Shown: positions 20,612 through 63,215 of the stretch, one piece after another
How the letters are laid out: each line of letters opens with the position of its first letter
Position numbering within the stretch: position 1 is the stretch's first letter
NCBI GenBank assembly: GCA_964036195.1
Contig: OZ038453.1
Coordinates: forward strand, 20,683,206 to 20,747,205
DNA: 64,000 bases
From: Sphaerolaimus hirsutus
Taxonomy: Eukaryota; Nematoda; Chromadorea; Monhysterida; Sphaerolaimidae
Reading direction: 5' to 3'
Program-made: the position numbers and the translations under genes
The notes under the pieces: generated by a model
What the model was told of the DNA's origin: nothing
The model's database searches: none
The model's input: the letters and a program-made list of their open reading frames with translations, nothing else

Positions 20612-21392
20612 ATGGAAGCATCAAAAGGTAATCTACTCATTATTACATTTCTCCTAATGACATTTTACGAAAACATTGCGGCAACAAGGGCATACATGGA
20701 AGGGTCAAATAGCAGGTGCCAGTTCCGAAAGTGGAGAAGTCTTTAGCCATTTGAGAAGTGAGAAGTAAAATGAGAAGTGTCAAGTGATATGGCAAGTAAA
20801 ATGGCAAAAGCAAAGTAAAATGAGATGTGTCGACTGAAATGGCAAGTAAAATGGCAAAAGCGAAGTCAAATGAGAAGTGATTTGTGAAATAAATAGAGAA
20901 ATGAAATGACAAGTGAAAAGTTACAACGATAAACATTGATAAAAGGATACTGATTATTGGCACAAAATTTCCACAAAAAATAACAGTCCAAACAGTCAAA
21001 AAAACAAGTAAACAACGATCCACATTCCACATTTCACTTACGACGTGCCAATTGTTTTTTAACTTTTTACTTGCCATTTAACTTCTCACAATTCACATCT
21101 AATTTTACTTCGTTTTCTGCTTTTTACTTGTCATTTTACTTCTCACTTCAAAAAAATTTTTAGACTTCTCCACTTGCGTAACTGTCCCAGAGCAAAAAGA
21201 TTGCCAATGGGTCAAAAACATGCATTTGGAAAAAAATCTATCATTGATAATCAGGCATTTAATGAACCGAATTTCGATGATTTTAATTATTATTATGATC
21301 GCAGCAGCCCATATTATAATTACGACAATCGTGATGATTTCGAAAATGATTACCACGGACAGTTTAACAGGATGCCGAACGTTTTGTACTGA
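20612..21392 (+). CDS. Small secreted peptide precursor, candidate amidated neuropeptide
   Basis: Two exons, 20612-20715 and 21191-21392, give 101 residues. Donor GTGCCAG and acceptor CTGTCCCAG split an Arg codon (AG+A). Residues 1-25 form a likely signal peptide (NLLIITFLLMTFYENIAA). Next comes SRAKR, a dibasic processing site, then LPMGQKHAF followed by GKK. This layout predicts release of LPMGQKHAF-amide. The remainder is Tyr/Asp/Asn-rich (FNYYYDRSSPYYNYDNRD) and ends MPNVLY. The intron is exactly one family T TIR element, inserted just before the processing site. Only one candidate peptide is present, and I did not recognise its family. A non-neuropeptide secreted protein is an alternative. 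Confidence 0.6.
20716..21190 (+). mobile_element. Family T introner-like element forming the whole peptide-gene intron
   Basis: The left end is GTGCCAGTTCCGAAAGTGGA and the right end is GACTTCTCCACTTGCGTAAC followed by TGTCCCAG. The GT donor and AG acceptor are the outermost bases of the element. The subterminal regions repeat AAATGAGAAGTG and TTTACTTGCCATTT. Length 475 bases. The 144-codon reverse-strand frame inside it comes from these repeats. Confidence 0.85.
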
Positions 21393-21460
21393 TGACTTTT
21401 TTTCCATTTGGAAGCGATTTTGTTTAAAAAGTTTAGACTGGAAAACGGGTGAAATTGGCC

Positions 21461-21653
21461 CTGCGCACACTAGTTTTCACACGAAATTTCAAAAACTCAT
21501 AAATGAGCTTTGAACGTGTCTGAGTTTTCCACAATGAGTCATTTTTTATCTCCGTCAACTGTAGTTAACGGCCACCTCATTGTAGAGAACTCAAATGCGT
21601 TCTAAGCTGATTTGTGAGTTTTCGAAATTTCGTGTGAAAACTAGTGTGCGCAG
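21461..21653. mobile_element. Family E palindromic MITE, ends CTGCGCACACTAGT
   Basis: The ends are CTGCGCACACTAGTTTTCAC and the inverted AAAACTAGTGTGCGCAG. The arms carry CGAAATTTCAAAAACTCAT and the centre is TCCGTCAACTGTAGTTAACGG. Copies lie at 45427-45625, 49570-49745 and 56058-56250. It starts about 70 bases after the stop codon of the peptide precursor. Confidence 0.75.
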
Positions 21654-21664
21654 GCACATTGTGA

Positions 21665-22602: not shown

Positions 22603-22970
22603 TTGTGACGCGAAGCGACACTCGTTGGCGGTACTGAAAAACTGGCGCTGCCCAAATTCACCGTTTCCAGACCATCGATGAGTTGGTGAAACGCCTGGAA
22701 GTGTTGGCTTGGCGTGAAGTCATTTCATGACTCTTCACCGCGGTGATACTGCTACTTCTATTATACCGTATTTCCTCGAAATACCCCCCTCGAAATACAC
22801 CCCAGCACTCGAAATACTCCCCCTCAAAATCAGCACTATGAATTAATAAACCCCCTTTCGAAATACCACCCCCCCCAATGTAAAGAGAACGTCAATGACA
22901 AAAGCTGCGGTTTATGACCCGGGCATAACACACGTTAAAAACAATGATTGTGTTACGTGAGAACATGGTT

Positions 22971-23385
22971 TACCGTATTACCTCGAAATACCCCCATGGG
23001 GGTTTATTATTTCGCCAGCAAAATTTGAGGGGGGTTAATTCGAGGGGGGTTTATTCGAGGGGTGGTTTTATTATGTCGCCAGAAATTTTCGTGAAATTCA
23101 TAGTAAAGTACATGCTTGTTCTCACATAACTTTTTCTCGCAATAAATGTGAGAAAATGGGTAATATTGGGGCCTTAGATGTAAATCTGTACACAAATGAG
23201 CGTTTAAGTGTAGCTACGATGCAAATAAGTAGTAAAAAATACATCATGTACATTGCATACATGATGTACATTATTCCGGAGGGGGGTATTTCGAGGGGGG
23301 TTATTATTTCCCCAGCCTATTTTGAGGGGGGGTTTCTTCGAGGGGGGGTTAATTCAAGGGGGGGATAATTCGAGGTAATACGGTA
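22971..23385. mobile_element. TACCGTATT MITE, ACCTCGAAATACCCCC word
   Basis: The left end is TACCGTATTACCTCGAAATA and the right end is TTCGAGGTAATACGGTA. GGGGTTTATTATTTCGCCAG and GGGGGTTAATTCGAGG words are present. Same subfamily as 8531-8913. Confidence 0.8.
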
Positions 23386-23582
23386 TACCATCTACATACT
23401 TATATTTATAAGGCTGTAGGCTCTTGTACATGATGGTTTGTGTTGCATTTTTCTACGTCTGCGTACGTTATTAGTACTGGGAGTTCAAAAAAATTCTGGT
23501 GAAATAATAAACCCCCTCGAATTACCCCCCCCCCCATTGAAATACCCCCCTCAAAATTCACACTATGAAAAACTAAATCCCC

Positions 23583-24955
23583 TGGGGGCAGTCCCAAGCC
23601 CTGTAAAGTGTAAAGTAAAGTGTCAAATGTAAAGTCAAATGCAAAGTCAAATGTCAAAAGTAAAGTCAAATGTCAAGTAAAGTGTCAAATGTAAAGTCAA
23701 ATGCAAAGTAAAGTGTCAAATGTAAAGTAAAGTGTAAAGTAAAGTGTCAATTGTCATGACAAACGATAAATAAACACGAAAAAATAAAAGAAAAAGAAAG
23801 TCACGAAATCCGTGTGAAATGGATTCCGACAGGGATAGTATCGTGCCGGATGGCGATCGCGAACCAAGAATTTCAACTTATCGGCTGCAGCAGAATTTTG
23901 GAGCAGAAAACGTAGAATCTTTCAAACAACACGATTTACGATTTTTTGTAACAGCGCAATGCGTTGATCCTCATTCATTTAGGTCTGAAGCGACATTTTG
24001 AAACACCACGATTTTAAACATTTAAACTGTTGATTTGGATCGCAGACCTTATATAAAGTTGGCACGCTTCCAATTCACCATTGTATATGGTGGAGTAATG
24101 TACGAATAAGAATTAAAGGCACAGCATTTGCGTTTGCGTCACCGATAATGACCGCGGAATGTGATAAAGCGAGCAAAAATGGTCGCTAATGGTGGCGGAC
24201 ACACTAGTTGACACACGTATGTAAACTGATTTCTGAACGGTATACAAATAGGTGTATACAAAAAGCTTTATGGGAAGCTGCCAAGTTTAAATACAGGTTA
24301 TCCCAGAAAATTATCTGTATGGGAACTTGGCAGCTCGCCGAAGCAGCCATTTAGATACACCGCTTTGTACACATACATCCCATACATGTGTCAACTAGTG
24401 TGTCGGCCGGCATGAGCGACCATCTCCAGTCACTTAATCATATTCTGCGGCCATTATCAGTGACACGGACTGAAATCCCGCATCTTTTACTCTCATTCGT
24501 ACAATATCCAATTGTATCCACCAATATCCAATACAAACTTTGAGTTGGGTTAAGTTCCCATATTTACGTCACCCGATCTGTTATCCCCCATTGATTTAGG
24601 ATACATACCACATTTATGATCTGGAACATGCCAATATACGATATTGTGGATTCACGATACCGCCAACATACACTATCCATGTCAGAATACATTTCACGCG
24701 GATCTTGTGAATTTCCTTTTTATATTTTTATTTTTTCTTCAATATTTTATGTTTTTCATCACAATTGACATTTGACTTTACATTTGACTTTACATTCGAC
24801 ACTTTACTTGACATTTGACACTTTACTTGACATTTGACTTTACATTTGACAATTGACTTTAGATTTGACACTTTACTTTACACTTTACTTTACATTTGAC
24901 ACTTTACATTTGACACTTTACTTTACACTTTACAGGGCTTGGGATTGGCACCTGG
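23583..24955. mobile_element. Giant family A fold-back (about 1.37 kb)
   Basis: The left end is GGGGCAGTCCCAAGCCCTG and the right end is CAGGGCTTGGGATTGGCACC; CCTGGGG flanks both sides. The arms carry runs of AAAGTCAAATGTCAAG and the inverse TTGACATTTGACTTT. They continue through GTCACGAAATCCGTGTGAAA and its inverse near 24680, then to ACACACTAGTTGACACA near 24210 and its inverse near 24390. It is therefore one palindrome. The 60-codon frame at 23819-24001 starts in an arm and is not taken as a gene. Confidence 0.7.
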
Positions 24956-24972
24956 GGATATTTCGAGGAAAT

Positions 24973-25513: not shown

Positions 25514-27555
25514 TCAACTATCCTTAAAACAAGTCATAATCGTCTCAAACTTCTTCAAACAGGGCAAAAACGAATTATCCACAACCGGGAAAGGTTCACA
25601 AATGGTCAAACATTTGGCAACTGGAGGCAGTCCCAGACCCTGTAAAATGCCCTGTAAAATATCAAATGTCATGCAAAGTGTCAAAAGTCATGTAAAATGC
25701 CCGGTAAAATGGCCATTTTAAATGTACAATTGCCATTTTACCGGCCATTTTCCGTGACTTTTGACACTTTGCATGACATTTGACATTTTACAGGCCATTT
25801 TACAGGGTCTGGGACTGGCACCGGGGGTGTGCACGTTTCTGTTTCTGCAACACGCGGTGTGATCTTGTTTTCTGTTCGCGCAATTGAATAGGGGGTCGGC
25901 GGCGTTTTTGGGGCACGCGTCCGTGCCCGCGCCGATCGCTAGGATCTGAGGAAGTGTTGGGAATTACCGTATTTCCTGGAAATACCCCCACCTCGAAATA
26001 ACCCCCTCGAAATACCCCACTCGAACCCCGCCCTCCCCTCGAAATACCCCCTAGGAAAACTCATTCGAAATACCTAACTGGAAATATCGCCCTCAAAATA
26101 ACCCCCTCGAAATAACCCCTAGAAATACCCCCAGGTGTGAGCGAGCTTATGAAAAATAACCCCGCTCGAAATACCTCACCGGAAATGAGTGTAAAGATAA
26201 TGTAATTGCCAAAAACTGTCCCTAGGGGAGATCTTTTTTTCATCAGGCTTTTTTCACTGGGGAGTTATTTGAGAGGGGACAGTTTTTAAGGGTACTTAAT
26301 CGAGGATATAAACACCTTCCCGGACAAGTTCACCACCCATTTTTTTATTTCACTTCGAATGCAATATCTCCGTTCATGGGGATGTTATAAAGCTGAAACT
26401 TTGTATAGGTATATAAAGTTGTGAGACCCCTCTACTCCCCAACAATGGGGGAGGTGCAGCGACTCACTACAGGGTGGGTCGCCGCACCTCCCCTATTGTT
26501 GGGGAGTAGAGGGGTCTTACAACGTATTATATACAAAGTTTCAGCTTTATAACACCCTCATGGATGGAGATATTGCATTCAAAGTGAAATAAAAAAATGG
26601 GTGGTGAACTTGTCCGGGAATGTGTTTACATCACTGCTGCAGGAAATCTGGTAATTTAAGAAATTGAAATTTCCAGTTTGGCAGCTTGACAGAAATACTG
26701 GAAGTTGATAAAAAAAACTTAAGACAGCGTTTACACTGTGACGACTGTGACGACAAAAATGCGATTTTTCAGCTGAAAAATCGCATTTTGTCGTCACAGT
26801 GGTCACAGTGTAAAAGGCGCCTAACTCACCACATTTCTGTTCAACTTGTCATAGTCGCAATGTCTGTAACACGTGCTGGGAACTTCCGGCGTATTTTCAC
26901 AGCAGTCTTTAAAGCGTTCATTCGGATCTTGGTTCACATTTGACTGAAAATGATAATTATTGTGATTGTGTACTTTGAAATGTTTCTTCATGTTGATGAA
27001 GCGAGGTGAAGCTACGTGAAGCTAAATGTGTGAAGAGGTATACTCTGCGGAGTGCATCGTGCCTAGCGCCAAAGCAAACAGCGCCATGGCGCTTTTGGCG
27101 CTTGGCGCCATTTGGCTGTGGCGTCATTGGCGTTTGGCGCTAAGGGTTAGAGAAGCGTCATGGCGCTTTTGGCGCTTGGCGCCAAAGTGTAGCCGCTTTT
27201 TACATCACTAATCGTGCCCTTTAGTGGCGCCAAAAGGCGTCAGCGCCACGGCACCACTGGCACCTGCCGCCATTTTTTGCTGCTTTTCCATCACTATTCC
27301 CAACTACCTAACCATATTTCAAACAATAGAACTCACTGTAGATCCGGAATTGCTACCGGTATTAGTGGGTCTGGGCGCCGACGGTCTCACATTATTATTA
27401 TTATTGCCAAAATTTGAAGATCTGCCATTATTATTGATGGTGTCCAGATACTTTTTGAACTTACCCCAATCCACTTGGGTTGAAAATGCACTGGAGCCTA
27501 GTTGAAATGTAGCTAATAATAGTAGAAAGTGCAACGATTTGCGGGAGTAATTCAT
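25514..27555 (-). CDS. Secreted DB-module protein (paralog 2)
   Basis: Four exons, 27555-27337, 26943-26830, 25945-25822 and 25620-25514, give 187 residues; phases 0, 0, 1 all agree. Residues 1-23 are a signal peptide (LHFLLLLATFQLGSSA). An Asn-rich linker follows (SSNFGNNNNN). Exons 2-4 encode a module with 12 cysteines: CC at 87-88 in NERFKDCCENTPEVPSTC, then HC, DACP, FNC, DHTACC, KCLTIC, LPC and MTC. That count and the CC-x(7)-C-x(3)-C and DHxxCC patterns fit the nematode DB module, an extracellular domain of unknown function. The gene lies 5.5 kb downstream of its paralog on the same strand. Intron 3 is a family A introner-like element; intron 2 holds unrelated palindromes. Confidence 0.9.
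25621..25821 (-). mobile_element. Family A introner-like element = intron 3 of DB paralog 2
   Basis: Reading with the gene, the intron starts GTGCCAGTCCCAGACCCTG and ends CAGGGTCTGGGACTGCCTCCAG. It is 201 bases, and the whole intron is the element with no extra intron sequence. It is close to a perfect hairpin: TGTAAAATG, TCATGCAAAGTG and GTCATGTAAAATG blocks mirror each other around ATTTTAAATGTACAAT. It splits a Val codon in HTP-V-AKC (phase 1). The paralog has no intron at that place. Confidence 0.92.
25965..26307. mobile_element. Degenerate TACCGTATT MITE in DB paralog 2 intron 2
   Basis: The left end is TACCGTATTTCCTGGAAATA. The interior is CCCCCTCGAAATA repeats and the right end is eroded (ACTTAATCGAGGATATA). 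It lies 20 bases upstream of the exon 3 acceptor. Confidence 0.6.
26318..26620. mobile_element. 303-bp palindrome in DB paralog 2 intron 2
   Basis: The outer ends are TTCCCGGACAAGTTCACCAC and the exact inverse GTGGTGAACTTGTCCGGGAA. The arms stay paired through GAAACTTTGTATA and CTACTCCCCAACAAT, up to a centre near 26470 (CGACTCACTACAGGGTGGGTCG). No coding capacity. Only one copy was noticed. Confidence 0.8.
26728..26817. repeat. Short palindrome centred on CAGCTG
   Basis: GCGTTTACACTGTGACGACTG pairs with CAGTGGTCACAGTGTAAA; the core is AAAATGCGATTTTTCAGCTG followed by its complement. It lies about 15 bases downstream of the DB exon 2 donor, so the transcript could form a strong hairpin there. 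Confidence 0.7.
27058..27217. mobile_element. hAT-like MITE with GGCGCC interior
   Basis: ATCGTGCC is repeated on both sides as an 8-bp target duplication. The interior is degenerate GGCGCTTTTGGCGCC words. The right end, TTTTTACATCACTA, is intact while the left end is eroded. It lies in intron 1 of DB paralog 2. A related fragment follows at 27230-27297. Confidence 0.65.
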
Positions 27556-28662: not shown

Positions 28663-28695
28663 GCATTAACAGCGTCAAGTCAATCACCATATATG

Positions 28696-29210
28696 TAGGG
28701 TGTCAAAAAAAAATTTTTACGGAAAACGGAAACGGAAAGGGAAAAAAATTTCAGCAGCTGGAAAACGGAACGGAAAACGGAATAAAATTTGCACTTGGCG
28801 GAAAACGGAAACGGAAACGGAAAAAAATTTTCAGTGGCCGAAAAACGGAAAAAGGGGCCGGAAAAACGGAAACGGAAAAATTAAATTAGCATGGAAATGG
28901 AAAAATTTGCTGAAATTTTGCCAGAAAACAGATAAAATTTGCTGAACTTTTGCTGGAAGTGGAAAAAAATTGCTGAAATTTTGCTGGAAACAGAAAAAAT
29001 TTACATAATTGACAATCTGCGTGAATGTTTACCAGTTCGGCTGGAACAGAAAACAGAAAGTTGAGCCAGAAAAAAGTAAAATGTGGCGGAAAAAGAGAAA
29101 ATTGAGGCGGAAAACGGAAAAAAAATTTCAGCAGCCAGAAAACGGAATGGAAAACGGAAAAAATTTGCCTGCGGATAACGGAAAACGGAAAACAGAAATT
29201 TGACACCCTA
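28696..29210. mobile_element. hAT-like MITE with GGAAAACGGAAA interior
   Basis: The TIRs are TAGGGTGTCAAA and the inverted TTTGACACCCTA, with CATATATG duplicated exactly on both sides. The whole interior is degenerate GGAAAACGGAAACGG or TTGCTGAAATTTTGCCGG words. The 219-codon reverse frame across it is an artefact of the repeat. A second copy is at 43437-43984. Confidence 0.85.
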
Positions 29211-31969: not shown

Positions 31970-31996
31970 AACAAAGGTTTATCAGTTTCAAACAAC

Positions 31997-32430
31997 TACC
32001 GCATTACCTCGAAATACCCCCAGGGGGTTTATTATTTCGCCAGCAAAATTTGAGGGGGAGATAATTCGAGGGGAGGTTTATTCGAGGGGGGTCTATTATT
32101 TCGCCAGAAATTATCGGAAATTCCCCATACGCAGACGTAGAAAAATCGAACAATCACATACCTACATTCATATGTGTTTATAGGCATATATTACTGTATA
32201 TACACAAAAACCCTTCCCTAACGTCACTTAATCATCAGTTTTAACGTGTGTTCTGCATATTACAGATCACAAACTGTGGTATTTGTCATGTACGTTCACG
32301 TTACACTCAATTTTAGGGGGGGGGGGTATTTCGAGGGGGGGTTATTATTTCCTCAGCCGAAATTTAGGGGGGGGGGGTAATTCGAGGGGGGGTTAATTCA
32401 AGGGGGGGGGTAATTCGATGTAATACGGTA
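31997..32430. mobile_element. TACCGTATT MITE, young copy
   Basis: The ends are TACCGCATTACCTCGAAATA and GATGTAATACGGTA. Its interior is almost identical, in inverse orientation, to 36433-36856: GCAGACGTAGAAAAATCGAA, ATTACTGTATATACACAAA, CCTTCCCTAACGTCACTTAA. High identity implies recent movement. The two copies bracket the DB paralog 1 gene. Confidence 0.85.
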
Positions 32431-33005
32431 GATAAATATGAGTTGCAGCATTATGTTTATCATAAATCATTTCATTTATATTATATAAAACATAAGAACA
32501 AATTAGACAGCGCCTGCGTAGGTGCCCTTTCAAACAATTCGCACCTTGTTAAAACACGTCAGTCTACCTGAAAACAAATGATTTACGAACATGCATAAAT
32601 ATTTATATACACTCCCTCTACGCCCGCACATATTTAATTTATCTAGTCTATATATCAGAGCCAAATAAATAAAAACACGATCGTAAGAAGCCCGCTGACA
32701 GTGTTTTTGATAAATGGCTGAAGCCTGAAAGGCAAATTTTGGCGGAGTATTTTTTTTGCGCTGTCCCTCGCGATAAAAAATCATGCATTTTGAAATGATA
32801 TTTGGCATGCAATAGACACGCTCTGAGAACATCTAAATATCAATTAATTAAAAACGTTGGAAAAGTGAACGTTTCCAGAGTATATACATCTAACATTTCT
32901 GTTGCAATCCAGTGAATTTATCCAGCCACACAAAAACCATAGATGCAGAACCATCAAAACCCACAAAAATCCACTCAAAAAATACACAACAACCAAAAAA
33001 AATCA

Positions 33006-34954
33006 TCAAATCTTATTATCAATATAATGCTCCAAAAAGCAATCATTAACAGTCTTCAAAATCTTCAAACACGGCTGCAACTTTGCTCCATGATGCACGG
33101 GAATCGGTGTAGAAGCGTCGCACATTTCCAGGCACAATTTCGAGGGACCCCCGACCCCCCTGCCGTTGCAACAGTCATAATGGTCTCTGTTGTCGCCCTG
33201 GGGGCAGTCCCGGACCCTGTAAAATGCCATATAAAATGTCAAATGTCACGCAAAGTGTCTAAAGTCACGCAAAATGCCCTGCGAAATGGCAACCGAGTTG
33301 CCATTTTGCAGGGCATTTTACGTGACTTTTGACACTTTGCGTGACATTTTACATTTTACAGGGCATTTTACAGGGTCTGGGATTGGCACCTGGCAGTAGT
33401 ATACTTGTTGGTATTCGGCGCCCGGGCACGCGTGCTTGTCTAGCGCGATGTCTATTATCTGAGGGGGGTTGTTTTAGGGGGCTGTTTAAGGGCGTTGGGA
33501 TCGGTAATAGGGTGTCAGCTTTCCGTTTGCTGCGGACAAACTTTTTTCGTTTCCTTTTTTCTGGCCGATATATTTTTTCCATTTCCGTTTCCATTTTTCA
33601 CTTTTGGAAAGTACTCGGGTACAGAAAACGTATTTTAGATAGGCTTTTTCAAGCCAAGGAGAGGAAACTGGTGTGAAAAAGGAAAAATATCCAAAAATGT
33701 ATGTACAAGCATATTTTGAGCAAATTTCAAGCAAAATTTCTTTAAAAGACTCACTTTTACATTTTCTATGGACAAAAGTATTTTATTCACATTTACTCAT
33801 GAGCCATGAGTAAAATTAAAAAAAATCGTTTTCTGTACTCAGTGGGTCAGTATAAAAGAAGTACTCTACATATTCGTAAAGCAGTGTTAAAACATTCGGA
33901 GCTTTAACAACTCTACTTAATACCTGATGATCATAGACAATTCAGTAAACCCTACAAGTTGTAATTAACTCACAGTTTTTCTATCCAACGGTTTGAATTT
34001 GCACAGAGACACACAGGGTCTGGAAATTATACCGCGGTCTAACAAATCGTTGCAGCATTTTTTCAATTCTCTATTTGCCTCTTTCTCTTTTTCAGCCGAC
34101 GTCATCTCAGATTTTTGCTCTTCTTCAGAATCCATTTCTTCAGATTTTTGTTCTTCTGATTTTGATTTCTGTTTTTCTTCGGATTTTTTCTCTTTTGAAC
34201 TTTCCTTTGATTTGCTCTTTTTTCCTTCGTTCGATTGTTCCTTAGGCTTGGATTTCGCTGGTTTACTGTGAATTTATGTTAAATAATAAGCTTAAGAAAC
34301 TGACAGAAATGTGGGGGCTAAATTTTGTGAAAAAATTTAACTAAATTTTAGGGGAGCATATTTTGACTACCTTTACCTACGTCCTTTTCATATTCTTTAG
34401 TATTTCTAGCATAGTGTTACTAAAGTACTTCAATAGAATACCGCATTTCCTCGAATCATCCCCCTTGAATCGACCCCCCCCCCCCCACGAAAATACACCC
34501 AGCCAGTTCTGAGCGAGGTAATACGGTGGTACTCCTATGATGTAGAAGTACCACCAAAAATTTCATCGCTATACGTCCATCGCAAATTCAATTCGTGAAA
34601 ACCACCTCTAAATCCAGCAAAAAAAAAAAAGACAAACCTCGATTTCTGCACTTCAATCAACGGTTTCCTGGGTCCACTTCTACTCCCCCCACCCGACGAC
34701 GCCTCACTCCCCCCACTCGGAGCTCCCCCTCCATCCGCACCCCCTACATTTGGCCCAGTGCCAACTTCTGCTGGGGGACCCCCCTTACCGACTTGCTCAA
34801 GGAATTTCACGAAGGCTGCCGGGTCCCATTGGGATAGGAAATCGGGTTTTTGCGCCTCGGGGGTGCTGGGGAAATTGAGTAGGATTACACATAGGGTTGG
34901 TAGGGTTAGGGTGCATAGGTTGAGTAGGGCGCGTAGGGTTGTAGGATGCGACAT
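33006..34954 (-). CDS. Secreted DB-module protein with Lys/Glu/Ser linker (paralog 1)
   Basis: Four exons, 34954-34638, 34265-33974, 33458-33390 and 33197-33006, give 289 residues; phases 2, 0, 0 all agree. I chose the second ATG (MSHPTTLRALLNL) because a signal peptide follows it directly. A Gly/Pro-rich stretch follows, then a highly charged Lys/Ser/Glu linker (about residues 106-165), absent from paralog 2. Cysteines 1-12 of the DB module run from CC at 176-177 (RELKKCCNDLLDRGIISRPC) through SLC, KHACPG, VYYC, DHYDCC, KLCLEMC, QPC and NDC. Intron 2 is at the same place and phase as in paralog 2. Intron 3 is a family A element at a place where paralog 2 has no intron. Function of the module is unknown. 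Confidence 0.9.
33198..33389 (-). mobile_element. Family A introner-like element = intron 3 of DB paralog 1
   Basis: In gene direction it starts GTGCCAATCCCAGACCCTG and ends GGTCCGGGACTGCCCCCAG. It is 192 bases with nothing else in the intron. The inverted arms meet at TTGCCATTTCGCAGGGCATT and are paired nearly throughout. It separates VYYCQ from GDNRDHYDCC in phase 0. CCAGG is present at both junctions and may be a short target duplication. Confidence 0.93.
33608..33915. repeat. K-type repeat, TTTACTCATGAGTAAAA
   Basis: It starts AGTACTCGGGTACAGAAAAC and ends AACAACTCTA, with the TTTACTCATGAGCCATGAGTAAAA palindrome inside. It lies in intron 2 of DB paralog 1, close to a GGAAAACGG-type remnant at 33500-33600. 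Confidence 0.5.
34439..34527. mobile_element. Short TACCGTATT-family copy in DB paralog 1 intron 1
   Basis: TACCGCATTTCCTCGAATCA to AGCGAGGTAATACGGTG, only 89 bases, with a C-tract. An internally deleted member of the family. Confidence 0.6.
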
Positions 34955-43436: not shown

Positions 43437-43984
43437 GCGTGTCAACAAAAACTTTTTATGGAAAACGGAAACGGAAATTTTTTTTGCTCTTGCCGGAAAA
43501 CGGAAACGGAAATTTTTTTGCTCTTGCCGGAAAACGGAAAACGGAAAAATGGTAGGCCAGAAAACGGAAACGTAAAAATTCTGCTACAATTCTGCCGGAA
43601 ACTGAAAAAAAATTGCTGAAATTTAGCCAGGAAACGGAAAACATTTGCTGAAATTTTGCCAGTAACTGGAAAAAAATGCACATAATTGAGAACCTACATG
43701 AATGTTGACCAGTTTGGTTGGAAAAGAAAACAGAAAATTCATCTGTAAGGGAAAATGAGGTGGAAAAACAGAAAATTTAGCTGGAAAATGAAAAAAGTCA
43801 GAAAAACAGACAATTTAGCTGGAAAATGGAAAAAAGCTGGAAAAACTGAAAATTTAGCCAGAAAACGCAAAATGAGCCGGAAAAACGGAAACGGAAATGG
43901 GAAAAATTTGAGCAGCTGTGAAACGGAAACGGAAAAAATTTGCCTCTGGAAAGCGGAAATGGAAAACGGAAAGTTGACACCCTA
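43437..43984. mobile_element. hAT-like MITE with GGAAAACGG interior (second copy)
   Basis: The right end is AAGTTGACACCCTA; the left end, GTGTCAACAAAAACTTTTTA, is slightly diverged from TAGGGTGTCAAA. The interior is GGAAAACGGAAACGG words as in 28696-29210. It lies 300 bases upstream of the BPI start codon. Confidence 0.7.
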
Positions 43985-47933: not shown

Positions 47934-50900
47934 TCAAACATTCCTCCTGCGTCTCTTCACTTGGCTCGCTGCCAATTTAGTTATGCCGTTCCCATTGCAC
48001 ATTGTGTGAGTGTAGAGTCTGTAGCCGTATTCGATTAGCACAATCCCGGTTCCCGGTCCATCTGGGGGCAATTCCAAACTTTGTCAAGTGACGTGAAAGT
48101 GTCAAGTGTGGTGGGAAGTGTCAAGTTTGGTGCCGAGTTTCAACCAGTGAATCAATCGTCTATTTGCTTTTTCTGTGGCACGTCAAGTAGGGTTGGGACG
48201 ATATATCGTATCGAATATCGGATATCGGCCACTTTTTCATATCGAATATCGATATCGAAAATTTTGAAAAAATATCGAATATCGACCATTTTGCCGATAT
48301 TTTTCGATCTTCTTGTTTTCTTTTTGAGGTATTTTTGATCGTTAAAAAATGGCTGTAGCCAACAAAAAGTGGACGCTGCAGCCAAACACATGTATGCTTA
48401 TAAATGCACAAAGAAATATATCATATAAATGCCATAAATGTCATTTTCACATTGAGCTATCAAAAGTAGGATATCAAGGGATGTATACACATCTTAACAA
48501 AATATAGGATCTTAACACAGCAAACTGCATCACAAGGAAACTGTTTCACCAAACCTTTGCATGGCAGTGTGGCTAAAAAATTTGGCTGTTTTTTTAAAAA
48601 TACCAACCTAAAATAAAAAAGCCAGCCACCCCTAGTCACAGGCAGGGACGTAGCCAGGATTTTTGAGCGGGGGGGGCGGATTGTATACAGAGCCCGGTGA
48701 ACGGGGGGGGCGGCGCCCCCCCCCCCCTAAAATTTTACCCCCGTAGTAAGGGAATGGCGCCATGGCGCTGGCGCCATTCGTAGGCCCCACGCCATGGCGC
48801 CACTGGCGTTGGCATTGGCGCCAAAACAGCAGTATACGTCTGTATTTTACAGGCATATACAGCGACATGGACAGAAATAGGGTCCATTTTCACTGGCTTT
48901 TAGGCCGCGGAGACTGGTCAGCCAAAAAGATATGTTGTGAAGGGAATGCGCGCTTGCGCGCAAAAATTTTTCAAACTGTCGACAAAATCGTCGTCTGAAA
49001 GTGCCATTTCTGGCACATTTTTTGGTCCGGCCCGGGAAGAGGGGGGGGGCGGCCGCCCCCCCCGCCCCCCCCTGGCTACGTCCTTGGTCACAGGTATGAC
49101 CTGTAAGTGTTTGCTTAATAATTTTTATCTGATATTATTTTATTCATCCTGTTTTTATTTCATTATCTCATTTTAACTGTTGTGCGCCTCATTTAAAAAG
49201 ATGATTAACCATGTTTGTGTCCAAATGGAAGTACAATATGCCCCGCTGTACTAAAATATCGAAAATATCGAAATATTGATATTGAATATCGAGCATATTT
49301 TCATATCGAATATCGATATCGAATATCCAGAGTCCATGTCGTATCGATATCGAATATCGAGTTTCAGAAAGAAATATCGAATATCGATATCGAAAAGTCA
49401 TATCGTCCCAACCCTAACGTCAAGTCGGACGAAAAATCACGAGTAAATGTGTGAAAAGTTTAAGGGATGGCCTGAATTTGTGACCTTTTCTGTAGGCGAT
49501 TTTTGAAAAACAGCAGCTGAAATTTTCAGTGCATATTCACTAGGAAATATTGAAATTTGGAAAAAAATGGAATAGTGTATTTTGAAATTTCATCGTAAGC
49601 GTTTCTCGTTTTTAGAGTGGGTGATTTTTAATCTCCGTCAACTGTAGTTGACGGATCCTTCATTCGAGAAAACTCAATTGCGTCCAGAGTCGATTTGCGA
49701 GTTTTCGAATTTTAGGCCGAAAACTACTGTGCACATTATGCCCAAATACGCTTTAATTGGGTGTTTACAATCGCTCTCTGATGTCAATTCCGACACTCCC
49801 TAGTCTGGACACTTACCACTTACACTTTACCCACTTGACACTTGCCTTGTCACTTTACAAAGTGTCAGAATTGCGACCGGGGCAGCTGCGCGGGTCGGGG
49901 GTGGTGGGGTAGTCCACTCGGGGGTCCCGGGGCCACGGCCAGGGCTGGGGCGTGATGAATCTGTGAGATTAAGTTTGGGTTTGAGAAGTTGTTGTTTGGG
50001 GTTTTGATTGAGGGTTGTGTGGGTGTCTAGGGTTGGCAAGCGATTTTTTAATCGATTTTTTCTTCCAAAAATGTGTGGCTGGGCCTTGGATTTTGCTGCG
50101 GTTTAATTTCGTATAGCTTATTTCTCGGAAACTTTACAAGTCCATGCACTTTGTGTCAGGGGTGTCCTAGGGGGGGGGCTGCCCCCCCAAATCCGCCAGC
50201 TATCTATCTATCCCCGAGGCCGCTCAGCTATCTATCTATCCCGAGGCAAAATTTTTTGGCTAGTACCCCCAAAGACCCCCCCCCCCCAAATCGCTCAGCT
50301 ATCTATCTATCTGGAGTGGTTTTTGAGAAATTTTGCCCCAATTTTCGCTAAAAATCACCAGTTTTCGCACCTTTTTATAGTTTTTCACCTTCAAGATCGT
50401 GTTCTCCGGCTATATGCATGGTTATATGCCTGTTTTTAGCCATTTTAAACCTACTTTTGGCCACTTTTAACCGATTATCAGCGATTTTTCCCCTTTCCGC
50501 CTTCTATGCATTGAAAAAGCCTATATATTTTGCCCCCGCGAGCCCCCCCCCCAAGCCCCCCTCCAGCCCCCCCCCAGAAATTTTTCCAGCTATCTATCCC
50601 TCCGGAGGAGCGATTTGCTATCTATCCAGCCCCCGCGAGGGCCAAAATCTTGGAGACCCCTGCTTTGTGTCCTATGATCTAAGTGCTCATTTACGCGAAT
50701 TACCACCGAAATACTTTTGCCATCGACCAGGTGCCAATTCCGCAAAGTCGAGAAGTGAACAAATAACTTGAGAAGTGAACTGATAGGTAAATAGTAAGAT
50801 CTAGATAAACTTCGTGTTTTTATACCTTTTTACTTGACATTTCACTGCTACAATGATCATTTACGTCTCCACTTGTGAAACTGAATTGACCCCCGTTCAA

Positions 50901-54846: not shown

Positions 54847-55046
54847 GGTGCCACTTCCAGTCTTTGTAAAATGACCTGGAAATGTTAAATTTCATCCAAA
54901 GTGTCAAAAGTAACGTAAAGTGGCCTGAAAAATGACAAACGTATTTTACCTTCGCCATTTTCCACGGCATTTTACATGACTTTTGACACTTTGCATGGCA
55001 TGTGGCATTTTACAGGACATTTTACAGGCTCTGGAAGTCCCCCCTG
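54847..55046 (+). mobile_element. Family A introner-like element upstream of the Ser-rich gene
   Basis: The left end is GGTGCCACTTCCAGTCTTTG and the right end is GCTCTGGAAGTCCCCCCTG, with the standard TGTAAAATG and AAAGTGTCAAAAGT blocks mirrored between them. It ends about 48 bases before the proposed start codon at 55094, so it may lie in the 5' UTR or promoter. Confidence 0.7.
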
Positions 55047-55093: not shown

Positions 55094-58000
55094 ATGAAAA
55101 AGCGACAGCGCGGCACAAACTTAGGCATGATCAAAAAGATCAACGTTCTAGAAGCGGCTGGCAGGGCGGAGGCTTTATTAGGTTTGAGAACCATGCCCCA
55201 AATCGCTTTAGTCGGTGGCGGAGATGACGCCGGACCCAGTCATGGACAACACGATGAACATGAATGTGGTATTGTGGATCATGATGGAATGGTGCAGCAT
55301 GGGAGTTGGTTTGGGGGGGGGGGGTGTTTGAGGGAGATGTTTGTTTTTGAGGTTATTTTCGACTTTTTTTCGTCTTTATTCCATTCATTTGTGACTTATT
55401 TTGCTTGCTTATTGTTTATGTGCAAAATTACCCACTTTATCAATTGACAGTTTAGTATTTGATTAAATATATCTATCCCACACCAATTATTTTTTTCACT
55501 AATAATTCACACATTAAACGACATATTTATGTAAATAAATGCCGAAATTTACCTTTTTCCCAATTCACTCTTCTCACTTAAGTAACTGAGTAAATAATTC
55601 ACATAATAAAAAGTATGTTTTCCGACTGCATGAAGTTCCATCAATTGTTGTCATACTACTGGGAGTAAAAATAATCCAGTTGTGTCAATGTTTGACTTGT
55701 ATTTTTCTTTTTGATTGTACTCCACAAACTTTCCAGTGATATCAAGCACTACAAATTGACATTTTCTTTCATTTGTTCTTTTCAGTCTTTCAGTTTGTTC
55801 CTGGCACATTGGGGTATAATTTAAGTGGAACTTCATAACTACATTCAATTTTATACGGTACTTATACGGTAATGTTGTAACAAAAAGCTTAGAGACAACA
55901 AAATTTCAAATATGAACGCAGCACTGCATCGAATAGTTAACTTAATCGAATGATTACATTATTTAGTGCATGGTTTCTAAAAATATTCCACCATAATGTA
56001 AATATTTATCTATGTGTATGTGCAGTAATTGTTCATGACATAAGTGATGTATAGGCGCTGCGCACACTAGTATACTGACTGTAAACTCATAAATCGGTTT
56101 TGAACGCATTTGAGTTTACCGAAATGAGGTGTGTGTCAACTGCTAGTTGACGAAGGTTGAAAATAACTCATTCTGATAAACTCAAGTAGGTTCAAAGCTA
56201 ATTTATGAGCACAGAAATTGAGTTTACTTCTACTAGTAAACTAGTGTGCGTGGCAACATAGCTAACGTAATGTAAACGTAAGTAGTTTTCTTGCAATATT
56301 GCCATTTAGCCACTTTAACCATTTTCTGTTGACAATTCATATCTACCTATGCTAATATCCCATTTTGCTAAAATCTATTCACTCTTTCTGCTGTCGTTTA
56401 ACGCAATGCGGAACAGATGTGAAAAAATAATTATTTATTTTAATGCTTTGAATTAATCGGCTTTTTACCTTAAGCAAAACATCCAGCTAGAGCTTAATCT
56501 CAATGGCATAATTTATCACCTTTTATCCCATAAATTTCATGGAAATTTAGCACTTTTCACACCGTGGGTATATTCGTGTAGTTCCGTAGCACTTTGAAAT
56601 ATTTCCCATTCTTTCAAAACAGCATTGTATTTCTAACTGTACCGTAATCCATCAATTATAAATATCTTCAATTTGCAAAGCGGCCACAACTAATAGGTGA
56701 TAATGCCCATACACGTGAGGAGGCCGCACAATACACATGTGCGCTATTTTCCGGAGTTGCAAAAGTACTGTACTTTTGGATGCTGTATTCATAACTGTAT
56801 TTGAGTACCCAGCTATAACAATGCAAACCTCTGGATAAAAAACATTAACGTGTTTATCATTTTAAGTGTTAAAAAATGACTTTTCGAATATCGAATGAGG
56901 TGAAGCTAATAAAACAGACTCACAGACAGGTGAAGTGGGTAAAAACCGCAAACTTCAGAAAACCAATTCACTTCCAATTACACTCCAAATCAATCTGACA
57001 TCTTCACGCTACACATTTCATCACATCTCTATATTCCAGCTAGCTAGTGTATTCAATAGAATAAGGTAACGTTGACATTCTACCCATCTAAACGCTGTAG
57101 CCACAAACACATCAACGTAACTCCACAACCTTATCCGCCCATCCCATTCACTCTCTTTGTTGGCCGGTGCGGGTGGCGGCGCGGCCGCTGCCCACCTCCA
57201 CGTACACGTGCACGGCCATAAACATCTGGTGGCACTCGCAGAGTCTGGAGAACGAACTGGGAAATGTAAAAGACACTGTAATGTCAGGTGTCATGTGAAA
57301 AACCTTGTAAACTGTCATGTGTCAGGTGAAAGGAGGGTGCACTGTTACTCACATAAACCCGACACACGGCCGTTACGCACATGATGAAACCCGGCACGCA
57401 CATAGGCCCGGTACGGACATAACCGGTGCTATCTGCGAGCCGGGTCTATGTGCGTGCCGGTTTATGTGCGTAATGGGCATATGTGCGTGTCGATTTTTTT
57501 CGAATCGAAATTTTGATCGAAATTTCGATCGAATTTTTGATTTTTTGCAGTTGACCAGCAGTCAAATGACAATACATTTTCATAAATTGAAAATGCCATA
57601 TAAAATTCAATGTATTGTCTCATTGACTGCTACGTCAACTGCAAAAAGTTAAAAACCAATACAAAAGGCTAGACATGTTTTCTGTTATCACTACACGTTC
57701 TCAGCCCTTTGTGTTTGAGGCAGCCAGCCCCATCACACACACAGCCAGTCACACACCCCAAATCCCCCACCTGTCGCGTACGTACGCCCGTTATACACAC
57801 ATAAACCCGGCATGCACATAGGCCCGGCTCGCACATAGTGCGAGTTATGTGCGTACCGGGCCTATGTAAGTGCTGGGGTTTCACTATGTGCGTAATGGGC
57901 GTATGTGCGTGCCGGGTTTATGTGCGTAATAGGCTGACCCATGTAAAGTGTCCAAAAGTTAATATTTGGTAAATATTATGTTTTTGTATCCAAATCTTAT

Positions 58001-61000
58001 GTTAACGTCAACCTGTACTCGTGTACTTTAGAATAAGATTTGTATATTTTACAAAGTTTTTACATGACATTTGACACTTTACAGTGTCGTTATACACTTT
58101 ACACATGACATTTTGCAAGTTCTTCTACATTTTCCAGGGCTTTTTACAGGGTCTGGGAGTGCCGCTGGACATACCACACTATGCCCATGGGGAAGGTGGC
58201 GGTGTTAGGAGAAGGTCTGGTGTACAGGTTAGGTTGCACTTGTATTTACTTGTACAAAAGTAAAAGTAGTAAAAAGTACTTGTACTCGCTTTAATGTATA
58301 CTTTTTGAAATTACTTGAGTAAGAAAATGTATTTCTGATAGGCGTTTATGTAGTTTTTCATGGCATAGAAGTGAGAAACGGGTGAAAAAAAGCCAAAAAT
58401 ACGGAAAAAAGCCCAAAAATGTCCTTTTGAGTTCATGTACCGTATTTGTTTGAATAATCCCCATGGGGAACTATTATTTCCTCAGACTATTAGAGGGTGG
58501 AACTATTCGAGGGGGTATTATCATTTCATCAAAATTTTCGAGCATGTTTCGATCAAGTCAGTTCATGAAATGTGCATCATTAACACAATAACGTGCCATT
58601 TTTGTTAAAATTAGGCACAACCAATTGATCATATCTCTTAAGGGGGAATTATTCAAGGGGGAATAATTTTTTTCTCACATGTCTTACAGGAGGGGGGTTA
58701 TTCGAGGGGGGGGGGTTATTCAAGAGGGGAACTATTCAAGCAAATACGGTATTTTCTTTGTGCCTTTCCTAGCAGGGCGACACGAACACGATGGACCACA
58801 CGCACCAGCAGCCATTGCTGGGCAAAATCAGCGGCGCTCTGTCCCAGTCGATTGTGTACAAGGAACAGCACGGTTTGCCTTTCTTCTGTTTGTATTCACC
58901 TACCGTATTCCCTCGAAATACCCCCAGGGGGTTTATTTTTCAGTGTGAAAATTTTGAGGGGGTATTTCGAGGGGGGTATTAATTCGCCAAAAATTTTCGG
59001 TAAGGATCATAGTAAGCAGTGTCCTTTGAACTTTACTTGAAGTAACGTTGAACTTTACTTATCTGCTTCAAATTTACTTGTCGCTTTCTACTAAACATAT
59101 CACTATTTATCCCATTTATTTCATCCTATCTTATATCTATGGCTCATTTCCTTGTTATTGATAACTTTTGTAACATGACATAACGTCATAACACAACTGC
59201 GGTATCACGTAACACGCACGCAGACAACACACTTCACAATATGCCACTTTTTCATCAATCACTATTCATTACAATTGCGTTAATCCAATTATTATTATCA
59301 GCGTGTAAATCCATGGTTATTTTTAGAAGCACTAGATTGCATGCTATGCATTTTTATGAATGAAACACTCCATCATGACGTCATCATTTATAAAATAAAA
59401 ATTGTTGAAAAATTAATTTCAGGCACGAAATATACGTTTGTTATACTCGACTCCGCCTTTTTTTCTGTTTCAACTTTAAAACTTTTTTTTGCAAAAGTCA
59501 TACATAAGTACCCTGCTCGCGCGTTATCGACCAAGACATAAGTAATTTTGGGCGCATACTTTGTGGTCCGCCGCCCAGTATACCAATAAAAGCAACTTTG
59601 CATAAAAGCGAATACAGATACTTTTGTGCGACAAAAGTTGATTTACCCAGGTTTTTGTACACCCGTGTATCCAAGTAAAAGTAAATAGGTACCTTCTTAC
59701 CCACCTTGCAAAAAAAGAGCAAAAAAGTGGCCGGCAAAAAACAACAGTGGACTACAAATATGAGAAAATCTGCATCAGCCACTGATGGCTATCCAATTTC
59801 AATGCAGAGAATTGGTGCTTTATTGCAAGTGCCAAATACCGTGGATGAAATTAATGACTCCGAATATCAAGACAAAAATAAGTTGAGATTGAGGAAGTGT
59901 TCTGGTGGAAGTGCTGGCAGTGTGCCAACTGATGAAAGGTGGGTCCGGTCGCTGAAAGTTTACTTTTTTGTTCAGCGTGAACGTTTTTAAACCGGACTTG
60001 AAGAAGTTTGAAGTTGAAAGAAGTTTGAAAATTTGTTAAATAGGTAGGTTCGGAACGTTTCTCAAAAATTATTTGAAGGGAATAGAAAATACCAAAATTA
60101 GCTCTCAAATACAGTGTTTGCTCGAATAATTCCTCCTGTAACGTGAGCGAGGAAAAAATATTCCCTCTCCAATAATTCCCCCCAATAATAAAGTTTCACG
60201 AAAAATAATTTCCATGGGAATTATTCCAGCAAATACGGTAAGTACTAAAAACGGGGTAAAATCTTCTACCTACCATAAAACCCCCGAAAATTCCCTCAGA
60301 CGCCTCTCAAACCGTTCAATGAGTCGTCTAACCTTCGACGAAGCTGCTAGAAAACTGAGCACCGGTCAAATAAAAAGCCCGCGGCAGAAAAACCAGACCG
60401 CAAACGTGACTACCATATCCAGTCTAATAGTGGCGCCCACGTACAACTACCATAATGTGTATTACGGTAGCGGTGGGGGAATGACGTCATCGCAGAGCGT
60501 TTCCTCCAAATTGGATGTCGGCTCATTGGCTAGTACTACTTTGATCGGGAAACGTGTGGGGTTGGTGCTTTTTGGGTGGGTTTTTTTTGCGTTTTGGGGT
60601 TTGCAAATTTTCTGCAAATTACTTGTGTAGTTTCAGCTGTTTTGATATTGTACAGTAAGTACCGTATTTGCTCGAATAATTCCCCTGGGGAATTATTTTT
60701 TCCCCTGGCTTTTTCGAGGGGGGAACGACTTGAGGGGGAATTATTCAAGGTGTGGAATTATTATTGTTAATCTTATTTTCCATTAGATTTCTTTTTGACA
60801 CCCCAATCTAAAATACGCAATGACAACTTCAAATGTTGTACATGAATTTTTTTTGAGTGTGACACCGACCAAAGACATGTTAAATTCCGATTTACAGTAA
60901 ATTTGTTTAGGTCTTTTGCATAGGTATGTATTTACAAGCAGAAATCTGTTCAAAACTGGACAAAACATAGGTTCCCTTGGAAATAAAATAATGAAAGGTG

Positions 61001-63215
61001 AAAAGCCAATTGGTGCATGCAATGGGTTAAATTGTACATCGGCAGAAAATTGTTATATTCCCAGGATCTAACACGAACAGCGGAAATATGAGTTCTTTAT
61101 GACACCCATTAAAAAATACGTTTCCATCAAACCGCAATTTCACACGCGATCCACTGCACTTTGCACCAATGCATTTTGGAGTAGGATTGGAGTAGAAGGT
61201 GAAAACACGTGCCAGGTGCATGCGGAAATATTTACCTACCGTATTTTTTTCTAATAGAACGGCGCCGTCAACTTTTTACCTGCCGTTCTAATGGAGGTGC
61301 CGTTGTATTGGAGGCTGCCATTGTATTTTTGCACCAAATGTTGTCACACATTTTTCATTTGAACACACCTAGTATGTTTAATGAAACATGAGCTTCAATT
61401 CAGGGCATCAATTCAAGCAAAACAAAATGTGCAAAACAAAAACAAAAAGCACCACCAATTTTTAATTTTTTTGTATGTTAGATCTCCTACAACGTAGTTT
61501 CTACCTGTCGTTATATTGGAGGTGGCGTTCTATTGAAGGTATGTCGTTCTATTAGAGGAACTACGGTATTATGAAATTTGAAAGCAAAGAAGTTTGCCTG
61601 GCTCAAAATGTAGCCCATTAAAGAACAAACTGCGATTCAGCGAGTGCAGTCTGAGTGTGTGTTCATTTAGTTCAGCAACAAAAAAACTATGTAAAAACAC
61701 TTTTTAATGGTGTAGTTAAGCCATGTATCGGATATTAGAATAGGGAGGTACACTTCACTGATGAAAAGTTGTTGTTTTTGTATAATCTTCGTAGGGTTAT
61801 AATTGTTGGAGTTCAAGTTTCAAAGTAATGTTCTCATCTCACGCTAATCCCTATCTCGTTTTATAAAACTTCTTAAGATTCAAATTTCCAACGAAAAAAT
61901 GATGCTAAAAGTTTGAACCTTATCATGATATTTTCAGTTTTTTTCTCTCAGCCTCAAATTGAACGGCAGGTAAAAAAATAGAACGGCACCTTTCCATTAC
62001 AATAAATACATCGGTAGACAATTAATCACAGCCAAACCCTTCAACATCTACCACAAACAAAAATCGAACCCCCCAACCCCCCGACCCCCCAGCTCAAGCG
62101 GCTTGGCGACAACAACCACCCCTAGTACCACCGAGCCCATTCCAATGGAGACTGTGGGCGGGGCCAACGATGAAATTCGGTCAGTGCAAATCGACCCGAA
62201 AGCGGTGGCGAGGAGCAGGCGAAGGTTGAGCTCGGGCACCAGGTGCCAGTTCTGGACCTTGTAAAAGACTCTGTGAAATGTAAAATGTCATGTAAAACGC
62301 CCTGTAAAATGTAAAATGTCCTGCAAAGTGTAAAAAGTCATGTAAAATGCCCTACAAAATGGCAAACGCGTTTGTCGTTTTGCAGGGCATTTTACATGAC
62401 TGTTGACATTTTACGTTTTTACAGGGTTCTTTACATGACATTTCACATTTCACAGGGCATTTTACAGGGTCTGGGACTGCTCCCAGGGCCTTGTTGCAGA
62501 GGCAGATCAGCTTGGCCAAGATCGTGCAGCAGGTGAGCTGCAGCAGAGAGATGCGTCTGAAGTTTTGCTTGTGAATAGCACAATGGGCCCACGCACACTA
62601 GTTGACATTGTAAATTCGTGTCAACTGAATATTCACTAAGTAACACAAAAACATTGTTGTAATGCATCACACTTAAACAGTTCGAGTCAAAACTCCCCCT
62701 CACTCAATCATATAGGTATACTAAAATACCCCCCCCCCCCCAGATCGGTGGCGGGATGGCTGGCGCTGGGGGTGCCAACAAGGGGAGGCGGGGCAGAAAG
62801 GGTGCAGCCATGCCCGGACAGGGGTCACTCCCAGACATTGTAAAATGCCTTGGAAAATGTCAAAATTCATGCAAAGTGTCAAGCTTCATGAAAAATGTCC
62901 AAAAATGTCAAATGTCATGCAAGTTGTCAAATGTCATGAAAATGTCCCGTAAAACGGCAAAAATTATCTTTTATTTCATTTACCAGTCGCTTGCCATTTT
63001 ACATGGTATTTTACATGACTTTCGACACTTTGCATGACATTGACATTTTACAATGCATATTCCAGTTCATTTTACATGCCTTTTCCACTTTACACGACAT
63101 TTTACATTTCACATGACATTTTACAGTGTCTGAGAGTGGCACCAGGTCATACTCAGTACTGCCGCGGTCAGGACGCACCGCCACGATGCTGTCAATGGTA
63201 ACCTGTTCGAATTTG
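55094..63215 (+). CDS. Ser-rich protein of unknown function, multi-exon, 3' end outside window
   Basis: Proposed exons: 55094-55291, 58776 to about 58904, 59718 (or 59748)-59938, 60300-60560, 62093-62242, 62487-62532, 62744-62823 and 63146-63215. From exon 3 on, every junction keeps phase (2, 2, 2, 0, 2) and the last exon ends at a GTGAGT donor. The N-terminus is basic (MKKRQRGTNLGMIKK), then His/Asp-rich. Later parts contain MDHTHQQPLLGKISGALSQ, ISMQRIGALLQVPNTVDEIN, RSMSRLTFDEAARKLSTGQ and VQIDPKAVARSRRRLSSGT. RRLS, RKSAS and RRRLSS look like basophilic kinase sites. No membrane segment is visible. A cytoplasmic scaffold or channel tail is a guess; I did not recognise a family. Joining exon 1 and the exon 2 end are the weak points. 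Introns 5 and 7 are family A elements. Confidence 0.62.
56058..56250. mobile_element. Family E palindromic MITE
   Basis: CTGCGCACACTAGTATACTG at the left and GTAAACTAGTGTGCG at the right. TAAACTCATAAATCGGTTTTG pairs with its inverse and the centre is GTCAACTGCTAGTTGAC. In intron 1 of the proposed Ser-rich gene. Confidence 0.7.
57258..58170 (-). mobile_element. Family A element, long variant with CACATAGGCCCGG repeats
   Basis: The left end is CTGGGAAATGTAAAAGACACTG and the right end is CAGGGTCTGGGAGTGCCGCTGG. It contains degenerate CGCACATAAACCCGGCACG words near 57350-57480 and 57780-57930 and TATCCAAATCTTATG in the right half. GC-rich, possibly coding stretches flank both sides, but no exon pair could be fixed. 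Confidence 0.55.
58438..58751. mobile_element. TACCGTATT MITE, TTTGAATAATCCCC word
   Basis: TACCGTATTTGTTTGAATAA at the left and ATTCAAGCAAATACGGTA at the right. It ends 25 bases before the acceptor of the 58776 exon. Confidence 0.75.
59331..59582. mobile_element. J-type MITE
   Basis: GATTGCATGCTATGCATTTTT and CACTCCATCATGACGTCATC at the left; TCGCGCGTTATCGACCAAGA and ACTTTGTGGTCCGCCGCCCAG at the right. In intron 2 of the Ser-rich gene. Confidence 0.6.
60660..60765. mobile_element. Short TACCGTATT MITE, GCTCGAATAATTCCCC word
   Basis: TACCGTATTTGCTCGAATAA at the left, with the right end eroded (TTATTCAAGGTGTGGAATTA). It lies 100 bases after the donor of exon 60300-60560. A similar copy with both ends is at 60112-60240. 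Confidence 0.6.
61237..61568. mobile_element. TACCGTATT MITE, AATAGAACGGC word
   Basis: TACCGTATTTTTTTCTAATAG at the left and TTCTATTAGAGGAACTACGGTA at the right, with GCCGTTCTAATGGAGG echoes. Further GAACGGCA words up to 62010 suggest a second, decayed copy. Confidence 0.7.
62243..62486 (+). mobile_element. Family A introner-like element = intron of the Ser-rich gene
   Basis: The intron starts GTGCCAGTTCTGGACCTTG and ends CAGGGTCTGGGACTGCTCCCAG; 244 bases, all element. It splits an Arg codon (AG+G) between RRRLSSGT and ALLQRQISLAKIVQQ. CCAGG is present at both junctions. The hairpin centre is GGCAAACGCGTTTGTCGTTTTG. Confidence 0.92.
62824..63145 (+). mobile_element. Family A introner-like element = next-but-one intron of the same gene
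   Basis: It starts GTCACTCCCAGACATTG and ends CAGTGTCTGAGAGTGGCACCAG; 322 bases. CAGG is present at both junctions. Here the acceptor end carries the GGCACCAG form and the donor end is GTCACTCCC. It joins AAMPGQ to SYSVLPRSGR through a split Gly codon (GG+G). Confidence 0.85.

Follow-up and report, generated by a model that had tools for sequence, protein, structure and literature searches.

An inverted-repeat transposon family that probably works like an introner and may give rise to introns ending in TG

The stretch of Sphaerolaimus hirsutus DNA analyzed here (64,000 nucleotides of contig OZ038453.1, positions 20,683,206 to 20,747,205, referred to as the window) contains inverted-repeat elements whose ends appear to be the ends of introns, which raises the question of whether a mobile element creates these introns. 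The origin of new introns is an old question, and a survey of 3,325 genomes found mass gain of introns from transposons, in the form of introners, in only two animal groups; introner families in that survey range in size from 5 introns to over 2,000, and no word starting with "nematod" occurs in its main text (PMC9860276; this and the other cited papers are drawn on in part). The elements in the window belong to a family of miniature inverted-repeat transposable elements (MITEs), and it is very probable that this family acts as an introner. The full explanation, in which the MITE inserts at CWG (CAG or CTG) and yields GT-AG introns at CAG and GT-TG introns at CTG, is likely. The introner reading is strong and the TG reading is its more tentative half.

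An earlier sequence-only reading proposed that elements of this kind are whole introns at six sites in the window. All six intervals hold an element, and the splice-consistent frames that had been described are present at all six. At five sites, read on the gene strand, the first two bases of the element form the donor GT, and the duplicated CAG closes the intron. The element bounds below exclude the 3-bp duplications, and position 20716 and the far end of the element at 48065 were placed by eye.

20716..21187, plus strand: candidate intron in a putative secreted-protein gene, with CAG at 20713-20715 and 21188-21190; open joined frame, no Pfam match.
25624..25821, minus strand: intron in a DB-module gene, with exon-side CCG and acceptor CAG at 25621-25623; PF01682 match across the junction (E 8.6e-12).
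33201..33389, minus strand: intron in a second DB-module gene, at a different position in the domain; CAG/CAG; PF01682 match across the junction (E 4.2e-10).
48065..49877, minus strand: long divergent element, candidate intron; CCG/CAG; open frame, no homology support.
62243..62483, plus strand: candidate intron; CAG/CAG; no homology support.
62822..63142, minus strand: element antisense to the proposed gene; CTG/CTG in the orientation of the element.

Two of the six sites (25621 and 33198) are proven by homology and three are consistent with the proposal. The sixth (62824-63145) is not clean, as its acceptor alone meets the element edge and the proposed donor, GTCACT, lies 2 bp inside the element, which would leave two extra bases. 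For the sites other than the two proven ones, Pfam found nothing that matched the three joined proteins queried for these four.

The main evidence comes from conserved proteins that the elements interrupt. Pfam was queried with 45 junction peptides, which were selected visually from open frames and serve as existence proofs and not as rates, and with three further peptides from single-exon frames. Seventeen of the 45 junctions are spanned by a Pfam or PDB-sequence match at the exact edges of the element; 16 of these elements are in sense and one is antisense, and the 16 sense junctions represent 13 protein families. Removal of the element and one copy of the repeat restores the conserved protein in these cases, and at the protein level the edges of the elements coincide exactly with those of the putative introns. 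Another 27 junction peptides gave no match or a match that does not span the junction (e.g. RsmB/F-type methyltransferase, PITP, GDT1, LRR, cadherin, and kelch), and a weak coiled-coil match over L111 was left out of the count. Nine of the spanned junctions have TG at the boundary. The spanned sense junctions are as follows, with locus numbers in parentheses.

AG at the boundary: DB module in four genes (window 25621, window 33198, L014, L021), all above the Pfam cut-off.
AG at the boundary: RPE65-like protein (L006).
AG at the boundary: KCC (L061).
AG at the boundary: Mon2 (L172).
TG at the boundary: CNOT9 (L110; C1:10595698-10596232).
TG at the boundary: IFT70 (L129; C2:9515897-9516323).
TG at the boundary: SLC23 (L084).
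TG at the boundary: AMPK-gamma (L056).
TG at the boundary: OSCP1 (L042).
TG at the boundary: Srx chemoreceptor (L083).
TG at the boundary: calpain III (L114).
TG at the boundary: C2H2 finger (L164).
TG at the boundary: DOMON (L165, below the Pfam cut-off).

The joined CNOT9 protein aligns gaplessly with a solved CNOT9 at 120 of 120 residues (E 3.1e-65). CNOT9 and IFT70 each match one locus, which is split at the element (three candidates were scored for each), and no second locus was found for either protein. The codons that flank the elements at CTG copies are intact, and in the OSCP1 gene ordinary-looking AG introns, identified by eye, flank the element intron. Empty sites were found in paralogues only, for the DB genes and AMPK-gamma. 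The element occupies four different positions within one domain in the four DB genes, and the paralogues L009, L011, L013, and L015 are uninterrupted there, so that intron gain is the simplest reading. A second AMPK-gamma match (C2:25184455-25184661), which is 83% identical, is uninterrupted where the C1 copy has the element.

The elements are non-autonomous, hairpin-forming inverted-repeat transposons with ends of the form GTGCCAGTCCC...GGGACTGCCCC, a longer consensus of GTGCCAGTCCCAGACCCTGTAAAATG...CATTTTACAGGGTCTGGGACTGCCCC, and a median length of 181 bp. Read inward, one end starts with GTGC and the other with GGGG, and because the two ends are unlike each copy has an orientation. Most copies are bordered by a 3-bp target duplication that is CAG or CTG; among 131 non-redundant elements the pairs are CAG/CAG in 38, CTG/CTG in 35, CTG/CAG in 15, CAG/CTG in two, and other triplets in 41. 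The 131 elements come from the window, from C1, C2, C3, and C4, and from a few other places and are not a random sample. This finding revises one part of the sequence-only reading, which held that the element carries a CCCCAG acceptor: the last bases of the intron are the duplicated target triplet, which is CTG nearly as often as CAG. Predicted folds pair both ends in 119 of 126 elements, and the inner ACAG is paired over a mean of 0.97 of its bases (108 copies).

A genome-wide search bore out that the family is present throughout the genome. The 22-bp end core has 7,720 matches at one mismatch or fewer in 348 Mb, with none for the reversed control, and since each element has two ends this corresponds to at least 3,860 elements. 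Exact 29-bp ends with a flanking triplet number 334 for CAG and 231 for CTG on the 5′ side and 412 for CAG and 246 for CTG on the 3′ side; such hundreds of identical ends suggest that the copies are recent. In the 3′ flanks of L129 and L165 a second element of the family seems to begin (CAG followed by GTGCCAGTCACG and CTG followed by GTGGCACTTCCG, respectively), and single genes may carry several.

Terminal inverted repeats (TIRs), a target duplication of fixed length, and a median of 181 bp define the elements as MITEs. No transposase-like frame was seen by eye, without a family search, behind two unpaired 3-kb ends (L028 and L055), and the absence of a transposase was otherwise judged from length. 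MITEs of the PIF/Harbinger type have 3-bp target duplications, and one family in fish targets CWG. The present elements resemble them in the 3-bp CWG duplication, in the G-rich start of the TIR, and in the abundance of PF13359 (Harbinger-type) transposases in this genome, which has 163 matches on many contigs (e.g. L116-L121). However, these TIRs are absent within 1.5 kb of the six transposase loci that were fetched, out of 163, and an alignment of the six loci showed no clear ends. An autonomous partner with matching TIRs, which the sequence-only reading suggested looking for, was not found. Many of the PF13359 matches have near-equal scores and four in-frame TGA codons, which fits one amplified family with an intron or decay.

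The position and orientation of the elements relative to coding sequence were scored with a codon model trained on 13 verified peptides. Loci in C2 and C3/C4 had been selected for an exact 5′ end next to a specified triplet, and elements were dropped if they had no second end in range, lay near the locus edge, or had repeated flanks; 40 C2 loci yielded 31 elements, 20 C3/C4 loci yielded 15, and one set of 40 C1 loci yielded 30. By this scoring 34 of the 131 elements lie in confidently coding sequence, in excess of chance, and 97 are not classed as coding, while random CWG sites are coding in 18 of 1352 cases in the window and 65 of 1004 cases in the distal flanks of the C1 loci. Of the 34 coding junctions, 32 are sense and two are antisense, distributed over the sets as follows.

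C1, window, and L002-L008: 18 sense, 1 antisense, 66 unclassed.
C2: 7 sense, 1 antisense, 23 unclassed.
C3/C4: 7 sense, 0 antisense, 8 unclassed.

The C2 and C3/C4 sets, which contributed no training data, give 14 sense and one antisense junction (p 0.001). Insertions that break genes or are excised from DNA should show no strand bias, and the elements are therefore probably removed in the transcript. The introner-like creation of introns proposed from the sequence is well supported by the target duplications, the four positions in four DB genes, and the 32 of 34 exonic copies in sense.

In the proposed mechanism, a large non-autonomous MITE family, which inserts at CWG and duplicates these 3 bp as many copies show, would act as an introner. 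A sense insertion into an exon would give a pre-mRNA of the form exon..CWG/GTGCC....CCCC-CWG/exon, and removal from GTGCC to the second CWG, which restores the reading frame at the protein level, would occur by splicing. The element would provide the 5′ donor and, on its 3′ side, a region in which TTTTACAG precedes the boundary by 19 nt; the final AG or TG would come from the duplicated triplet. The arms are predicted to pair in one long stem, which would join both ends and bury the inner sites. CAG copies would become GT-AG introns. At CTG copies, AG may be recognized at the upstream TTTTACAG and the TG 19 nt downstream then used, and the stem may hide the inner ACAG at the second step so that the boundary is presented. 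Point changes to CAG at the intronic triplet could later make CTG introns conventional.

As the acceptor AG is supplied by the target repeat, CTG copies have no AG at the boundary, and a precise intron at a CTG copy would be GT...TG. Confident sense-coding junctions comprise 13 CTG/CTG and 13 CAG/CAG copies in a sample partly chosen by triplet, and seven and eight, respectively, at loci that were not chosen by triplet. All 13 CTG/CTG coding copies are in sense. In 30 of 35 CTG/CTG copies the AG closest to the boundary lies 19 nt upstream of it, and combined with the edge GT it does not keep the frame. For seven CTG genes, possible donors (GT or GC) and AG acceptors close to the element edges were enumerated, and the five nearest in-frame options printed per gene all alter the protein, by 3 to 63 nt net. 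Among 50 copies with exon-side CTG, 15 have an intronic triplet that has turned from CTG into CAG, and the reverse is found in two of 40 (Fisher p 0.0026), a shift toward AG that would be a sign of selection for AG. The CTG introns are either GT-TG introns or small insertions are tolerated there. GT-TG is somewhat favored as the usual outcome at CTG copies. The broader proposal, in which the transposon makes GT-TG introns in bulk, about half being born with TG, spliced exactly via the AG 19 nt upstream, and drifting to AG afterwards, stands at even chances.

A doubtful but serious alternative accepts the introner origin and has the CTG copies use inner sites, namely a GC donor at +2 (GT/GCCAGT) and TTTTACAG 19 nt before the boundary, which together add 21 nt, or seven residues, in frame. 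This GC-AG option is printed for five of the seven CTG genes (L110, L129, L084, L042, and L083) but not for L056, and for L114 only the nearest options were listed; codon-adding introners are also known in Aureococcus (PMC9860276). However, inner-site use would put seven residues into the stretch of CNOT9 that aligns without a gap over 120 residues, and in nine of the 13 CTG/CTG coding copies no GT and AG that lie within 12 and 24 nt of the edges form an in-frame pair. It also needs a GC donor that is poor by the usual consensus, and the inner site is predicted to be paired.

Several observations weigh against the introner reading or its TG half. The calpain gene L114 has an in-frame GT-AG option that adds three residues, and a 1-bp deletion in the AMPK-gamma copy permits a GT-AG product with six extra residues. 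The uninterrupted AMPK-gamma paralogue means that the element-bearing copy need not work. The excess of CAG on the 3′ side among exact ends genome-wide is not significant (412:246 versus 334:231 on the 5′ side, p 0.23), and the TG acceptors of a human study were only alternatives to a nearby AG (PMC2374985). An antisense copy lies in a C2H2 gene (L071, 347-523 of that locus), which also looks intact once the copy is precisely taken out and is spanned by a zinc-finger match below the cut-off. Read on the coding strand, this copy would form a GG...AG intron, and it is unexplained if removal occurs in the transcript. In the GDT1-family gene L094 an antisense copy lies 26 residues ahead of the Pfam match. 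A test of frame phase by codon score alone at untrained loci is weak, ranging from 6 of 10 (p 0.08) to 11 of 17 (p 0.008) by threshold. At the 62243 site the codon model favors the opposite strand, and in G+C-rich coding DNA either strand often holds open frames.

It is improbable that the CTG copies are instead recent, unspliced insertions that break genes, or that they lie in pseudogenes or on one haplotype. The uninterrupted AMPK-gamma paralogue fits this explanation; however, the lack of a second CNOT9 or IFT70 locus and the intact flanking codons do not, and harmful insertions are not expected to be in sense in 13 of 13 cases. Precise somatic excision at the DNA level via the 3-bp repeats, as for the internal eliminated sequences of ciliates, is very improbable. 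Nematodes do have programmed DNA elimination, and a single repeat copy would restore the gene whatever W is, but excision from DNA needs no orientation relative to the transcript, whereas 32 of 34 coding copies are in sense, it leaves the change toward AG unexplained, and the elements are abundant in the assembly. Both of these explanations were rejected on the orientation of the copies and on CNOT9 and IFT70. Ordinary MITEs within older introns, with edges that coincide by chance, would suit the 97 of 131 copies that are not classed as coding but are hardly credible, being already contradicted by 17 junctions with protein matches at the exact edges, where the coding bases are the target duplication, and by the four positions in four DB genes with paralogues uninterrupted there.

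By analogy, the elements appear to work like a DNA-transposon-type introner, a mode known from Chrysochromulina (Gozashti et al. 2022, PMC9860276). Those introners are likewise non-autonomous and form whole introns with the 5′ site from the element and the 3′ site from the target duplication, and some families have TIRs. The Chrysochromulina example has 4-bp target duplications and no TIRs, in contrast to the 3-bp CWG and long TIRs found here, and the parts of that paper used describe no class of TG acceptors, which the CTG copies would provide. The closest parallel for non-canonical ends is the dinoflagellate Amoebophrya (PMC7789003), where hairpin introners have inverted repeats, direct repeats of 3-5 nt at the exon edges, and non-canonical dinucleotides. 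Unlike the present elements, where GT is kept, only the last dinucleotide is AG or TG, and the evidence is at the protein level, the Amoebophrya introns are supported by RNA sequencing and their motifs vary widely. The larvacean Fritillaria is an animal in which many introns are not GT-AG, and introner transposons with weak sites are among the possible origins that the authors give for them (PMC13326754); however, 95% of its introns escape GT/AG, whereas ordinary AG introns lie beside the element intron in L042. In human genes TG 3′ sites are used together with an AG within 28 nt, which has been explained by an AG that is recognized early and a TG that is chosen late, but these sites concern 36 genes and are always alternatives to AG (PMC2374985), whereas TG here would be the frame-keeping site and made by transposition. 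No description of introners in nematodes was found in the literature searched, judged from titles and the beginnings of abstracts, and a paper on nematode introns treats introners only in general terms (PMC9169325).

The family would add a further animal setting for introners, probably in a phylum well known for its genetics, and one that offers thousands of copies along with target duplications and empty sites. The nematode affinity was judged from the DB and Srx domains, which are typical of nematodes. The coin toss between CAG and CTG amounts to a natural test of the rule for 3′ splice sites, as the same element at the same type of site ends in AG or TG, and it makes testable how strict the spliceosome is on AG and how a new intron turns conventional. 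If RNA data confirm the TG boundaries, about half of the checked exonic elements, those that seem to end in TG, would break the near-universal AG rule; creation of GT-TG introns in bulk would, if true, be a genome-scale exception to that rule, with evolutionary repair caught under way.

Apart from the six sites, the window has at least eight copies or copy ends of this family that had not been called introns, so that the six proposed sites are six of about fourteen.

3241..3421, plus strand: further copy, CTG/CTG, not evidently an intron.
13604..13778, plus strand: further copy, CCG/CAG.
23585..24951, minus strand: long copy (1367 bp), CAG/CAG.
54848..55043, plus strand: degenerate copy, CTG/CTG.
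57229..58165, plus strand: long degenerate copy.
63288..63508, minus strand: degenerate copy.
From 29986 and from 37309: copies or copy ends.

A scan of the window with Rfam at gathering scores gave no match, and SL2 RNA (RF00199) was not found in a search that had no positive control. A second repeat family has many copies in the window, with ends like TACCGTATTNCCTCGAA and CGAGGNAATACGGTA and a C- or G-rich interior, and arrays of short repeats are also present.

5318-5595, 8531-8915, 15489-15788, 22966-23394, 31992-32439, 58438-58983, and others: copies of the second repeat family.
28697-29166 and 43545-43947: arrays of short repeats like GGAAAACGGAAACGGAAAAAAATTT.

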